Positions 5,460 to 15,644 of a DNA stretch of 33,760 nt are shown here, one piece after another; the stretch's first letter is position 1, and every line of letters starts with the position of its first letter. Under the pieces are notes generated by a model that had not been told where the DNA came from, did no database searches, and saw only the letters and a program-made list of their open reading frames with translations. The stretch is taken from positions 1 through 33,760 of the forward strand of contig JAGLEV010000086.1 of NCBI GenBank assembly GCA_023144895.1, in the 5' to 3' direction. This DNA is from Thiotrichaceae bacterium (GTDB taxonomy: Bacteria; Pseudomonadota; Gammaproteobacteria; Thiotrichales; Thiotrichaceae). The position numbers and the translations under genes were made by a program.

Positions 5460-6155
5460 TCACTCAGTGCTATTCAAAGACTTAATCCCCTTATGTGGTA
5501 AAAATATACCACAGCCTAATAAACCTTTTCCACCTAAGCCTATTTGCTGAATTTTAATGGAAGGAATACTTTCTAAATCAGCAATCATTAAATGTCTTGT
5601 GGTAATTATTTCATCTATTGTTTTAATTTTATGACTCATCCCACAGATCATCTTTCTAACTCTCACTTCAGTTAAGTCAAAAATTTCTTCATGCATACGT
5701 TGTAAAAAAGTATTCTCATCTTCATCCTCACTTGATAATACTTGTCGAGCAAAGATAACGGAAGCATTACTTAATTTTTTGGTACGATAACCTGATTTTA
5801 TTGTTAATTGATCCCCTGCAACCTCAATAGTTTGCCCCTCTAAAATATTACAATCATCAACCCTAGCCTGTGGAACTCGCAAACTCATTCGTGTACGACG
5901 AGAAGGCCAAAGGTAAGCACCTTCTCTGTCCTCAGGGCGTTGCCAGCCATTACCTGTTTCAGCCACATGAATGGGATGAATAGCAAAGCCACGCTCAGAG
6001 CAACACCAAGGCAGAAGCACTTGAATACTTTCAGAAAGTGAGGCAATGTGATCTATCGATAACTTCTTGCACTTTATAGGAAAGCTGATATCAACAATAT
6101 CATCAGGTATCTCATAAGGTATACTTTTATCTTCATCTTCTTCCCAAAACATCAT
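5460..6155 (-). CDS. Orphan Cas6/Cmx6-like (type I-MYXAN family) protein
   Basis: The 231-residue product resembles, from memory, the Cas6/Cmx6 branch of CRISPR RNA-processing endoribonucleases (RAMP fold). Features seen are the opening VDISFPI (21-27), His36 in SIDHIASL, the IHPIH box (59-63), the basic strand SRRTRMSLRVP (85-95), and the C-terminal glycine-rich loop GLGGKGLLGCG (206-216) followed by FLPHK. Such a G-rich loop near the C-terminus is a Cas6 hallmark. His36 is a candidate catalytic residue by position only. There is no CRISPR array, no Cascade gene and no cas1/cas2 in the window. It begins one base after the stop of the 65-residue gene, with AGCGAGG just upstream, so the two are translationally coupled. 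A second in-frame ATG follows directly. Its RNA target, if any, is unknown. Confidence 0.7.
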   Translation of the reverse strand: MMFWEEDEDKSIPYEIPDDIVDISFPIKCKKLSIDHIASLSESIQVLLPWCCSERGFAIHPIHVAETGNGWQRPEDREGAYLWPSRRTRMSLRVPQARVDDCNILEGQTIEVAGDQLTIKSGYRTKKLSNASVIFARQVLSSEDEDENTFLQRMHEEIFDLTEVRVRKMICGMSHKIKTIDEIITTRHLMIADLESIPSIKIQQIGLGGKGLLGCGIFLPHKGIKSLNSTE

Positions 6156-6156
6156 G

Positions 6157-6354
6157 CTACCTCGCTGAAGAAAAGGTCATTTCAAGCTCATCATACCAAG
6201 TCGTTGGTCGATCTTTATAAGCAGGCGGTTCTATATCGAGATTAAAAAACATCTCTCCTTTTGCTAATGCTTCACGTACAATAACCTCTTTTAGCTCTTC
6301 AAAAGAGCTAATTTGATCACCATGTTTCAATAGAATTTCACTAAGACTCAGCAT
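6157..6354 (-). CDS. 65-residue unknown protein coupled to the Cas6-like gene
   Basis: A short, soluble, rather acidic protein: a predicted helical N-terminal half (LSEILLKHGDQISSFEELK, then VIVREALAKGEMFF) and a proline/aromatic C-terminal half (LDIEPPAYKDRPTTWYDEL). It has no signal peptide, membrane segment or cysteine. AAGG lies upstream of the ATG at 6354. Its TAG stop is separated by a single base from the ATG of the Cas6-like gene, and the ribosome-binding sequence of that gene lies inside it, so the two proteins are probably made together and may interact. I do not recognise a family. Its coding status rests on the coupling and the plausible composition. Confidence 0.65.
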   Translation of the reverse strand: MLSLSEILLKHGDQISSFEELKEVIVREALAKGEMFFNLDIEPPAYKDRPTTWYDELEMTFSSAR

Positions 6355-11219: not shown

Positions 11220-13238
11220 ATGATGTTCAGACTTATATTTTTATTGATTTTGTTTTGTTTCAACCTCCCCCTACAGGCTAATCCAGCCAATAAGACCTTA
11301 TTTACATTAGATATCATCCAATTGAAAAATAGCTTAGACTCAGCACCTGAATTATCGGCGAAAGAGTCTGATACATTACCCACGATTCAACTCCCTCTTC
11401 CTAATGGTGAATTTATCACCTTCTTAGTAGAAGAAACTCATATCCTAGCCCCTTTGCTTGCTCAAAAATATCCAGAAATACAGACATATAAAATCAAACA
11501 AAAAGGAAATACGGGTGTGATAGGACGGCTAAGCCTTTCAACACGAGGGCTACTTGCAATATTTCACTCCAAAGAAGCTCGCAAAATTTCAATTACTCCC
11601 ATCAATAAAGACAATATCAATAATCAGCAATATATTAGTGAATGGAGCAATGAAGTTTCTGGAAAGCTTCAACACAAGCGCAGCAATGACCAACTGCCCC
11701 AAGCCATTGAAGAAACATTTTATCATTTAGCACAGAAGCAGAAGGGCAGCACTTCATTAACACAGTATCGTGTTGCTATTGCGGCAAATTCGGGCTTTGT
11801 TGCTGCTCAAGGTGGCACAGTATCCAGTGCATTAGCTGACATTGCACACATTATCAATAGTGTTAATGCCGTATTTGAACGTGATTTGGGTATACAGCTC
11901 ACACTGATTAAAGATAACGATAAGATTATATTTGATCGAGCCAATAATGACCCCTACTCTGGTGAACTGAGCGATATGGCTTACAAAAACCAAGAGGTCA
12001 TTGATGATGTGATTGGTGCTGAAAACTATGATATTGGTCATCTTTTTGTGGCACGGGGTGGCGGAGTTGCCCATGTGCAATCAAGCTGTAAAAATGGCTC
12101 AAAAGCAACGGCTGTTTCAGGTAAAAATAAATTAAGTTTAGAAAACTTTGCGACAGAATATGTGGCTCATGAAATGGGGCATCAATTTGGAGCAACTCAT
12201 ACTTTTAGCAGCAATAAAGGTCTCTGTACTAATGATGCTTTTACAGCGGGTTCGGCTTACGAGCCTGGCAGTGGTGCTAGCATTATGTCTTATGCGGGTC
12301 TTTGTGGTAGTGACAACTTACAATCACATTCTGATAAAATGTTTCACATTGGCTCTATTGAACAAATAAGACAATTCAAACAAAAAATCAGTACTTGTGG
12401 CATCGACATCAGTCATAAAAATGCCAATACAGCGGTGATTGATGCAGGTTATGATTATACCATTCCAATCAATACTGCCTTTGAACTCAAAGCAGAGATT
12501 AGCTCAAAAAATGATTTTACTAGCTATAATTGGCAACAACTTGATACCAATAGTACGGTCACTACACTAGGAAGCGATATGGGTAATAATGCGCTCTTTA
12601 GAAGCTTCCTTCCACAACAATCAACCACTCAATCTTTCCCGAAAATCACTCGATTCCTTGCAGGAAAAACAACCTTGGCAGAGCAGCTACCTAAAAAGCA
12701 AAGAGAAATGAATTTTCGCTTTATTGCTAATTTAAAATACGGCGGTTCACTCATCGATCATATCAAATTAAATATTAGTGATACGGGAGCCGCTTTTAAA
12801 ATAAAAACAGTTTCAACCAACTATCAAGCAGGTAATGATTTAGATATTACATGGGAGGTTGCTGATACTGACCTCAGCCCAATCAACTGTTCAACGATTG
12901 ATATTAGCCTTACTGAGTCACGTAGTCAGCCTATTTTTAAAACCCTAGCGAATAATATAACGAATAACGGAAGTGCCCGTATCACACTCAACCAATCTTA
13001 TCATTCCAACTCAGTGGTTAAAATAAAATGCAGTGATAATATTTTCTATGCTCTTTCCTATCAGCCAAAAAATATTCCTCAAGCAGCCACGAGTAATACG
13101 GTAAATACTCAAAATAACATGAATGATACTAAGAGCAATGGAGAAGAAGAAGCTGGTGGTGCTGGAGGTGTATTACCACCCTATTTATTGCTACTCTTTG
13201 GCTTACTCTTTTTCCCTTGTATTAAGAGCGAAAGGTAA
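11220..13238 (+). CDS. Secreted zinc metalloprotease with GlyGly-CTERM-like tail
   Basis: 672-residue reprolysin-like (metzincin) protease. Domains in order: signal peptide (1-20, cleavage near LQA-NP); propeptide-like region to about 180; catalytic domain with the extended zinc motif HEMGHQFGATH (317-327) and a metzincin Met-turn SIMSYAG (354-360), with cysteines at 290, 336 and 362; a beta-rich region; and a C-terminal tail with GGAGG (646-650), a hydrophobic segment (about 653-666) and a short charged end (KSER). That tripartite tail resembles GlyGly-CTERM signals processed by rhombosortase. His317, His321 and His327 would bind zinc, with Glu318 as the catalytic base. The mature protein is predicted to be at the cell surface or released. 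The last 17 bp overlap the opposite-strand oxygenase gene. Substrate unknown. Confidence 0.88.
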   Translation: MMFRLIFLLILFCFNLPLQANPANKTLFTLDIIQLKNSLDSAPELSAKESDTLPTIQLPLPNGEFITFLVEETHILAPLLAQKYPEIQTYKIKQKGNTGVIGRLSLSTRGLLAIFHSKEARKISITPINKDNINNQQYISEWSNEVSGKLQHKRSNDQLPQAIEETFYHLAQKQKGSTSLTQYRVAIAANSGFVAAQGGTVSSALADIAHIINSVNAVFERDLGIQLTLIKDNDKIIFDRANNDPYSGELSDMAYKNQEVIDDVIGAENYDIGHLFVARGGGVAHVQSSCKNGSKATAVSGKNKLSLENFATEYVAHEMGHQFGATHTFSSNKGLCTNDAFTAGSAYEPGSGASIMSYAGLCGSDNLQSHSDKMFHIGSIEQIRQFKQKISTCGIDISHKNANTAVIDAGYDYTIPINTAFELKAEISSKNDFTSYNWQQLDTNSTVTTLGSDMGNNALFRSFLPQQSTTQSFPKITRFLAGKTTLAEQLPKKQREMNFRFIANLKYGGSLIDHIKLNISDTGAAFKIKTVSTNYQAGNDLDITWEVADTDLSPINCSTIDISLTESRSQPIFKTLANNITNNGSARITLNQSYHSNSVVKIKCSDNIFYALSYQPKNIPQAATSNTVNTQNNMNDTKSNGEEEAGGAGGVLPPYLLLLFGLLFFPCIKSER

Positions 13239-13806
13239 GCCAAGTGGTCGCAATATACTTAACTCCTTTTTGGATCGTACATGCACGATGCTCATGTGTC
13301 CAAAAGGGAGGAAACAAAACCAGCTTTCCTTCCTGTGGGGTAACTTTTGCACCCTGATGCATAAATTCTGTTTCTCCCCCACTAGCATCCACATCGTTCA
13401 AATACCACAAGGCAACTAGCTGACGTGATGCCAAGCCAGAACTATCACTATCCACATGCCAATGATAATACTCGCCTTCTTGATAACGCTGTAAATTATA
13501 ACCCATATCCTGAAAACGGCTAATATCACCAAAATAAGGATAAAGTGCTTGAAACTCTTTTAATGCCAGAGCAAAAGAACGAAAGAGGTTATTATCGACA
13601 TCCTTCCAATGCTCTTTATTACTAATATAAATATCAGTGGTCTTTTTGAGCTGAGTATTCTCAGCCATTCCTGACCCAACATGACCATAATTTTGATCTG
13701 TAGCATTCGCCTCAAAGCGCTCAATCATATCGCGACATAAAAAATCAGGCAGTGCATTGGGTTTCTCAAAAATAAAACTCCCCTTTTTAATTTCACGCAG
13801 GCTCAT
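13222..13806 (-). CDS. 2-oxoglutarate/Fe(II)-dependent oxygenase (PKHD/prolyl-hydroxylase type)
   Basis: 194-residue double-stranded beta-helix oxygenase. The iron-binding facial triad is visible as HWHVD (His117 and Asp119) and the distal WTHEHRA (His171 most likely). Lys183 in GVKYIATTW takes the place of the usual Arg or Lys that holds the 2-oxoglutarate carboxylate. GGETEF (143-148) and GKLVLFPP (160-167) are further family landmarks. Family members hydroxylate prolyl or other residues in proteins, or small molecules; the substrate here is not predictable. The start codon lies inside the end of the upstream conserved unknown gene (14-bp overlap), a sign of translational coupling. Its own 3' end overlaps the convergent metalloprotease gene by 17 bp. 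Confidence 0.88.
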   Translation of the reverse strand: MSLREIKKGSFIFEKPNALPDFLCRDMIERFEANATDQNYGHVGSGMAENTQLKKTTDIYISNKEHWKDVDNNLFRSFALALKEFQALYPYFGDISRFQDMGYNLQRYQEGEYYHWHVDSDSSGLASRQLVALWYLNDVDASGGETEFMHQGAKVTPQEGKLVLFPPFWTHEHRACTIQKGVKYIATTWLTFRS

Positions 13807-15026: not shown

Positions 15027-15644
15027 GTGCGTATACGAATCAAAACCAAGTGGAGCAAGGAAGAACGAGAAGTCTCTGTTGAGGATTCAGTGGGTGTACT
15101 TGCTTTTAATGCGTGGAAAATTGGTATGCAGGTATTACTCGAAATTGAAAATGAGAACTTCCAAACCGATACCCAAATGCAACGTATTGCCATTATGGAA
15201 GAAGTCATGGCATTGATGATTCATAGTCTTGATCGAATGGTTTATCACACAGTTGATGATGACGATCGGGCACACCTCATTACAATGTACGCAAAGAAAA
15301 TTGCTGATCATATTCAAGATAATGCCCGTGATTTTGATGGGCCTGGTGACTACCGTTCTCCTTTTATTACTAAGCTCAATGAACGCATGGCAGATTATGC
15401 AGAAACTTCATGGAATGATGAAAAAATTGAGCCTAATTTTAATATGAGTCGTCTATTTGCAGGTCATATTGCTGAAACACTAGGTCCTCGTGACCGTAAA
15501 TGGGTCATGGATTATATTCAACAAGTACTGACACCTGACTTTATGACATTGTATAAAAAAGCCATTCGCTCTATTGGTTTGATTGAAACTGACCCTGATG
15601 AAGAGCTATCAAATCTTTCAAAACATCATATGCTGAAGTCTTAA
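15027..15644 (+). CDS. Conserved-looking hypothetical protein, 205 residues
   Basis: Soluble, acidic, mostly helical protein without signal peptide, membrane segment or cysteine. It opens with a basic beta-like segment (MRIRIKTKWSKEEREVSVED) followed by long helices with several Met and His residues (MQRIAIMEEVMALMIHSLDR). I do not recognise the family. The start is GTG at 15027, decided by an AGGAG (15014-15018) eight bases upstream; no ATG is better placed. It is divergent from the Sfum_1244-like gene and followed after 49 bp by the GST-like gene on the same strand. Length, a good ribosome-binding site and a coding-like composition support a real gene. Confidence 0.75.
   Translation: MRIRIKTKWSKEEREVSVEDSVGVLAFNAWKIGMQVLLEIENENFQTDTQMQRIAIMEEVMALMIHSLDRMVYHTVDDDDRAHLITMYAKKIADHIQDNARDFDGPGDYRSPFITKLNERMADYAETSWNDEKIEPNFNMSRLFAGHIAETLGPRDRKWVMDYIQQVLTPDFMTLYKKAIRSIGLIETDPDEELSNLSKHHMLKS

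Follow-up and report, generated by a model that had tools for sequence, protein, structure and literature searches.

A Cas6-like gene and a small partner gene associated with dsr sulfur-oxidation loci in Gammaproteobacteria

Introduction

To our knowledge, Cas6 proteins are known only as crRNA-processing enzymes. Three described forms lie closest to the gene reported here. The Cas6/Cmx6 protein of type I-MYXAN (I-B) systems (TIGR02807/PF09559) belongs to the same family by HMM and shares with it the residue His36 and a glycine-rich loop. Our dsr-linked gene differs from it in having neither cas3, cas8/cmx8, cas7, cas5 nor an array beside it, as far as the neighbours were read, and in a GNGWxRPED segment and a PHKGI tail, which belong to the main clade of its homologs and not to type I-MYXAN-type relatives. 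The Cas6 of the type I-B CAST (8fcj) is the nearest solved structure both by sequence (E = 1.1e-22) and by fold; it is a subunit of Cascade, whereas no Cascade or array was seen beside the dsr-linked gene. The third, a type III Cas6-RT-Cas1 protein encoded in the same genome (contig C64), also has a Cas6-type domain, but one of the PF10040 family, fused to RT and Cas1 and encoded beside Cas10 and Csm3/Cas7-like genes.

On the side of sulfur metabolism, dsrA is a marker of Dsr-type sulfur oxidation. Cys-less members of the DsrC family, which we take to be the proteins called RspA in the literature, resemble the DsrC paralog encoded beside the Cas6-like gene, 90 of 95 copies of which have no C-terminal Cys (some of these loci repeat a genome). 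We know of no link between this Cys-less group and a Cas6-type protein. Within the open-access literature, most subscription papers being outside the scope of the search, we found no report linking a Cas6-type protein with dsr; the passages found in PMC10952691, PMC5728499, PMC5944118, PMC11267869 and PMC3368242 are ordinary descriptions of CRISPR or of dsr, and PMC11406059 yielded no relevant passage.

Results

The window, by which we mean the whole stretch of DNA analysed, comprises 33,760 nucleotides of a Thiotrichaceae genome (G000). An earlier note on this DNA had proposed an orphan Cas6-like gene at positions 5460..6155. Exactly this open reading frame (ORF) is real; it encodes 231 amino acids on the minus strand, and the plus-strand reading of the same interval contains 16 stops. 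It is the second gene of a pair, the first being a 65-amino-acid partner gene at 6157..6354 on the same strand, whose stop codon is separated by one base from the first ATG of the Cas6-like gene. The neighbours had been named correctly as well: the 65-amino-acid ORF has no known family, and a Wzz-type chain-length gene lies downstream. The remaining ORFs of the window read as ordinary chromosomal genes. No cas genes were recognized on reading of its ORFs, a simple array scan found no CRISPR array in it, and an Rfam search returned two tRNAs and nothing else. Within the window, the statement that there is no CRISPR context stands; elsewhere in the genome, on contig C64, there is one type III locus.

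The 231-amino-acid protein belongs to the Cas6 superfamily. It matched the Pfam Cas6 model PF09559 with 164.3 bits (E = 4.1e-48; cut-off 26.7), which rules out a chance ORF, and PADLOC Cas6 models at E = 7.1e-47. The HMM check that had been proposed was thus passed for PF09559, far above the cut-off, but not for TIGR02807 (cas6_cmx6), which gave 81.8 bits (E = 6e-23), under its own cut-off of 98.85; at E ≤ 0.001, an E threshold and not the model cut-off, TIGR02807 matched 45 of 45 homologs. An AlphaFold model computed from these 45 homologs reached a pLDDT of 89.5 and a pTM of 0.85. Foldseek ranked 8fcj_B, the CAST Cas6, at the top (E = 1.5e-14, TM 0.73), and the 38 hits at E ≤ 0.001 bore the titles of Cas6, Cse3 and other CRISPR-associated or Cascade chains, with Pyrococcus Cas6, with and without RNA, among the lower ranks. 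The confident model and its matches to solved Cas6 structures support the Cas6/RAMP fold that the earlier note had predicted.

Residues invariant in all 45 homologs include His36, Trp71, Ser85, Arg87, Arg93, Arg137, Lys168 and Gln203. The IHPIH box singled out in the earlier note accounts for only part of the conservation, with its first histidine, His60 (codon 5976..5978, minus strand), in 44 of 45, L080 being the sole exception, and His63 in 42 of 45; His36 (codon 6048..6050, minus strand), on the first helix and unmentioned there, is nevertheless better kept. Lys222 is found in 44 of 45. In a wider comparison, His36 is present in six of seven rows and absent from the CAST Cas6, whereas His60 occurs in one of the seven, namely the CAST Cas6. 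Four remote rows of a beta type have His36 in three and His60 in two cases, and one of them, L162, has neither. From these alignments, His36 appears to be the best candidate for a general catalytic residue, a role assigned by analogy, and likelier than His60. The C-terminal loop GLGGKGLLGCG (residues 206–216; 5508..5540, minus strand), a hallmark of Cas6, is conserved across homologs as GLGxxxxLGCG, with G208, G214 and G216 in 45 of 45. A G-N-G-W-x-R-P-E-D segment (residues 68–76; 5928..5954, minus strand) is a signature of the main clade: N69, G70, W71, R73 and P74 are found in 45 of 45 homologs, and the position of W71 is a gap in the seven comparison rows and the four beta-type rows.

The 65-amino-acid protein had no NCBIfam or PADLOC match and no Pfam match over the cut-off. 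Members of its family have 62–65 residues; the predicted structure has three helices (pLDDT 84.6) and found no fold match in the PDB. We detected the family in 106 of 369 evenly drawn genomes of the class, in single copy nearly everywhere. In 75 of the 80 named loci (the best 80 of at least 547), its gene precedes Cas6 by no more than 2.5 kb and in the same orientation. In a shared sample of one genome per family, all 20 genomes positive for the small protein also had Cas6, and four of the 24 Cas6-positive families had no detected small protein. Of 12 loci retrieved for the small gene, 11 have Cas6 nearby and the remaining one lies at a contig end; in one genome (G104) the two genes are on separate contigs. 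No small protein was detected in the beta-type loci of four remote members of the class. Conservation of the pair in related genomes, on which the earlier note had made its proposal depend, was thus found: both genes are kept across many families.

A scan of GTDB with the Cas6 alignment gave at least 547 relatives, of which we kept the best 80; 42 of their loci have room around the gene, meaning no less than 4.5 kb before it and 2 kb after it. Among these 42 (from the best 80 of at least 547), dsrA is found upstream in the opposite orientation, within 10 kb or less, in 36 and the small gene lies upstream in 37; tauD accompanies them in 32, a DsrC paralog in 31, a 67-amino-acid protein in 26, a PiuC-like gene in 25 and a TPR-like gene in 7. 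The usual order is dsrA, then, divergent from it, tauD, the small gene, cas6 and the Cys-less dsrC. In its fuller form, a divergent dsrA is followed by the gene for a TauD-type dioxygenase, the small gene, sometimes the TPR-like gene, Cas6 and the DsrC paralog, and beyond these by the 67-amino-acid protein and a divergent PiuC-like gene. Across the loci compared, the other DsrC copies have two Cys in 54 of 61 cases, some loci again repeating a genome. In four remote class members from the phylum sample described below, dsrA and Cas6 are divergently oriented, Cas6 is followed by the DsrC paralog, and tauD is on the same strand about 0.6–1.6 kb beyond that paralog.

We also opened 19 stretches containing Cas6, 17 from other families and two from the family of the window. 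By similarity, they contain the small gene in 15 cases, DsrC in 14, dsrA in 13, tauD in 13, a PiuC-like hydroxylase in 12, the 67-amino-acid protein in 10 and a TPR-like protein of about 240 residues in 7; no dsrA lies nearby in six of the 19. Neighbours were called from their similarity to selected proteins of the dsr locus and from a reading of some ORF lists; Pfam matches confirm the assignments of TauD, DsrC and the sulfite-reductase domain, and TPR-like and PiuC-like are names from reading. We conclude that the adjacency to wzz is incidental and that the dsr sulfur-oxidation locus is the home of the pair in most of the relatives opened.

Several further observations concern these neighbourhoods. 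The TPR-like family (L049 7061–7774, minus strand; L120 9259–9984) has no Pfam match over the cut-off, and its gene separates the small gene from cas6 in purple sulfur bacteria as well as in some further lineages. In Allochromatium palmeri, for instance, the order is small gene, TPR-like gene, cas6, and dsrA is on the opposite strand. The conserved 67-amino-acid protein (L039 4938–5141, minus strand, and equivalents) follows the Cys-less DsrC paralog in many dsr loci. Two other ORFs of the window recall genes of these loci by eye: 15027..15644 is like the gene just after cas6 in G076 (L153) and also like one about 1.1 kb after cas6 in G123 (L151), and 13222..13806 (minus strand) is like an oxygenase-like gene that follows the 67-amino-acid protein in G101 (L150). 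Three Cas6 copies lie away from dsr genes (L051 3182–3856; L052 6434–7129, minus strand; L053 5939–6655) and have none of the partner genes beside them, such a copy being the only one found in G094 and G104. By eye, the genes around them include one RlmB-like and one Trm112-like gene as well as an RNase III/Era pair; His36, His60 and Trp71 are present in each of the three copies.

The distribution of the gene was compared with those of dsrA and cas1 in 144 genomes, the genome of the window included, 81 of which represent one genome for each other family. The Cas6-like protein is present in 75 of the 144, nearly always as one copy; named carriers include Thiothrix species, Cocleimonas flava, Allochromatium palmeri and Halochromatium glycolicum. 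With dsrA called at E ≤ 1e-80, 65 genomes have both genes, 10 Cas6 only, 5 dsrA only and 64 neither. The five dsrA-only genomes are 78–87% complete; six of the ten Cas6-only genomes are less than 90% complete, and among the other four is G033, with a DsrB-like hit. In the 81 one-per-family genomes, the corresponding counts are 23, 1, 2 and 55 (Fisher test, p = 7e-17), the two dsrA-only genomes being 78 and 81% complete. For cas1 in the same 81 genomes, 9 have both, 15 Cas6 only, 16 cas1 only and 41 neither (p = 0.44). Over all 144 genomes, Cas6 and cas1 are positively associated (46, 29, 22 and 47 in the same order; p = 0.0005), so the absence of a link to cas1 rests on the one-per-family set. 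Within the family of the window, 37 of 51 Cas6 carriers also have cas1.

Across the phylum, we found Cas6 in 5 of 398 evenly drawn genomes, the genome of the window included, and dsrA (here at E ≤ 1e-50) in 53. The five Cas6 genomes coincide exactly with those of the window's class that have dsrA, also five; in four of them, the genome of the window aside, Cas6 is divergent from dsrA. None of the 48 dsrA-positive genomes of other classes in this sample has the Cas6. The link between the two genes thus characterizes this class rather than Dsr in general, and Dsr as such can do without the module.

The genome of the window comprises 2.64 Mb in 103 contigs and is listed as 100% complete. Genome-wide searches, with the cas1 model as the only profile used for cas genes, found one Cas6 of the PF09559-type family and one cas1. 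The latter lies within a 977-amino-acid Cas6-RT-Cas1 fusion on contig C64, in a type III CRISPR locus (L034 9899–19653) with Cas10, Csm3/Cas7-like genes, the fusion and Cas2. The Cas6 domain of the fusion is of PF10040 and weak (26.3 bits; cut-off 25). No array was found in the stretch examined beside this locus, where only about 0.3 kb of contig follows cas2. Because the fusion includes a Cas6 domain, the CRISPR locus of this genome appears to bring its own Cas6. The earlier note had named two results that would count against co-option, the lack of a significant Cas6 match, or a complete type I CRISPR locus with a matching repeat elsewhere in the genome but without its own Cas6; PF09559 is matched strongly, and the single cas1 locus detected has a Cas6 domain, weak as that is at 26.3 bits. 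The dsrA–tauD genes are on contig C75 and the Cas6 pair is elsewhere, absent from its usual site. A three-copy repeat beside this tauD was considered as a mini-array and rejected, being a coding repeat of a lysine- and cysteine-rich protein. The repeat (L134 2738–2927) consists of EGKCG units, rich in Lys, Cys and Gly, within a gene for a small protein located downstream of tauD, near the place where relatives have the Cas6 pair; we take the units to resemble copper-binding EGKCG peptides.

A Cas6 of type I-MYXAN would be expected only in CRISPR–Cas genomes, and 29 of the 75 carriers of the present gene gave no cas1 match; five of these genomes are single contigs (G081, G096, G106, G141 and G143) and several are incomplete. 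Together with the conservation across families, this gives good support to the earlier guess of a co-opted Cas6 that is independent of CRISPR. We searched 22 carriers, 18 of them cas1-negative and four from the phylum sample, for Cas3 and Cas10. None had Cas3 over the cut-off (best 74.4 versus 102.45 bits). The Cas10 palm domain exceeded its cut-off in seven of the 22 and was strong only in G409 (95 bits), with no strong match in the 18 cas1-negative carriers; the other six matches (28–32 bits; cut-off 27) are probably GGDEF proteins. A scan for arrays in 168 loci and the window (1.77 Mb), which found a synthetic control array, detected arrays only in a CRISPR-bearing plasmid (L164), in addition to the coding repeat in L134, and none in the dsr-linked loci scanned.

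Six relatives of the family on cyanobacterial plasmids were opened, and in five of them cas3 and a cas8-type gene follow immediately; the sixth, from Gloeobacter, has no other cas gene within 4 kb. This Gloeobacter plasmid gene (L167 3971–4762), annotated as Cas6/Cmx6 and with a PAPS-reductase-family gene nearby, is possibly another non-CRISPR use. In a tree of 59 rows, the six plasmid relatives and the CAST Cas6 are split from the other 52 rows with support of 100/98; long branches and a bootstrap that had not settled make the inner order unsure, and with it the position of the four beta-type rows.

We looked for a candidate RNA substrate in three spacers of the dsr loci. Over-represented words in the dsrA–tauD spacer resolved into two conserved palindromes, TATCCC-N3..5-GGGATA and, about 30 nt from it towards dsrA, ACACCCCATGGGTGAGA (for example in L015 83–405). 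Among 56 non-redundant dsrA–tauD spacers, 16 have the first palindrome perfect; we counted ten one-sided mismatches (six GAGATA, four TATCTC) and no compensatory pairs. The second palindrome is still found at dsrA–tauD in five genomes with the pair elsewhere (L136, L137, L140, L141 and L143), and its stem is broken in the genome of the window (L134). The one-sided mismatches without compensation and the persistence of the second palindrome away from Cas6 led us to reject both as Cas6 RNA hairpins; the sequences favour DNA operators over RNA stems. The perfect first palindrome occurs once, at dsrA–tauD, in six of eight Thiothrix genomes (the genus being assigned by inference), twice in G039 and not at all in G034, both of the Thiothrix set, nor in the genome of the window. 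It marks the dsr promoter, and the palindromes are candidate operators of some dsr regulator; a word shared by the cas6–dsrC spacers of Thiothrix, before the DsrC paralog, looks like a related operator. No shared hairpin was seen by eye in 55 dsrH–dsrC spacers, and no candidate RNA substrate was left after the dsrA–tauD, cas6–dsrC and dsrH–dsrC spacers.

Discussion

The Cas6 fold, the conservation, the dsr linkage and the missing CRISPR genes in many carriers were all obtained by computation. The gene lies outside CRISPR loci and mostly beside sulfur-oxidation genes, a setting that points to the reuse of part of the CRISPR machinery in sulfur metabolism. On balance we favour the explanation that the pair is a domesticated, CRISPR-independent Cas6 module of the gammaproteobacterial Dsr system, probably one that cuts or binds cellular RNA. 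Weighing against it are the negative substrate search in the spacers, the 48 dsrA genomes of other classes without Cas6, the ten carriers in which dsrA was not called, the six of 19 stretches with no dsrA nearby, the row L162 without either histidine and the association with cas1 over all 144 genomes; an association, moreover, does not amount to activity. The mechanism that we infer extends to partner binding, cleavage, substrate and regulatory effect. The Cas6-like protein, probably complexed with the small helical protein, would recognize a particular structural element of a cellular RNA, for which a dsr-regulon transcript is the likeliest candidate. It would cleave this RNA, as the conserved residues suggest, or only bind it; either event would adjust expression of the dsr pathway. 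Since dsrA–tauD and the pair are on different contigs in the genome of the window, we propose that the pair acts in trans there. Chances seem about even for the more specific view that nuclease and 62–65-residue subunit form an RNA-processing complex that is a standard accessory of gammaproteobacterial Dsr for post-transcriptional control of a central energy pathway; the gene is co-inherited with dsrA and mostly located in the dsr locus, though not in the genome of the window.

The main rival is a regulator that binds RNA or DNA without cleaving it and acts, with the Cys-less DsrC, on dsr transcription or translation. The Cys-less DsrC does adjoin it, operator-like palindromes are present at dsrA–tauD with a similar site before the Thiothrix DsrC paralog, and the remote row L162 is devoid of both histidines. 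However, the main clade keeps H36 in 45 of 45 and H60 in 44 of 45 homologs, more than binding seems to need, and the second palindrome persists in the five genomes with the pair elsewhere, which fits another regulator; we therefore regard a binding-only protein as unlikely. That the gene tracks dsrA and not cas1 across families argues against a different alternative, a trans-acting crRNA processor that matures the repeats of arrays elsewhere and is near dsr by accident. So do the 29 of 75 carriers without a cas1 match, five single-contig genomes among them, the 18 cas1-negative carriers without Cas3 over the cut-off or strong Cas10, the lack of arrays in the dsr-linked loci scanned and the Cas6 domain, though weak, of the one cas1 locus in the genome of the window. 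Such a processor would agree with the Cas6 family of the protein, with cas1 in 37 of 51 carriers of the window's family and the association over the 144 genomes (p = 0.0005), and with the presence of a type III locus in the genome of the window, but we hold it to be distinctly improbable.

A toxin–antitoxin pair, in which the small protein would be the antitoxin and the Cas6-type RNase after it the toxin, would explain the small ORF directly upstream, the single base between the genes and the RNase fold. A mobile, patchy, multi-copy distribution would then be expected; the family is instead nearly always in single copy and in a recurring metabolic neighbourhood across many families, and the window protein had no match (tblastn, E 1e-5) in 72,556 plasmid or 50,697 phage records. 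Among the 24 sampled families with Cas6, moreover, four had no detected small protein, nor had the four beta-type loci, and we give a toxin–antitoxin function very little credence.

Under the favoured explanation, a domesticated Cas6 module of the Dsr system, the Cas6 fold and family are already known; a cellular substrate, if demonstrated, would make the module a new kind of system. Family models would label the module as CRISPR Cas6/Cmx6, and surveys of CRISPR in sulfur bacteria can be led astray by TIGR02807, a model named for CRISPR that at E ≤ 0.001 takes in all 45 homologs. Named carriers such as Thiothrix allow a look-out for the RNA substrate. If true, the module would be a clear case of CRISPR machinery domesticated for metabolism, in a major biogeochemical pathway.
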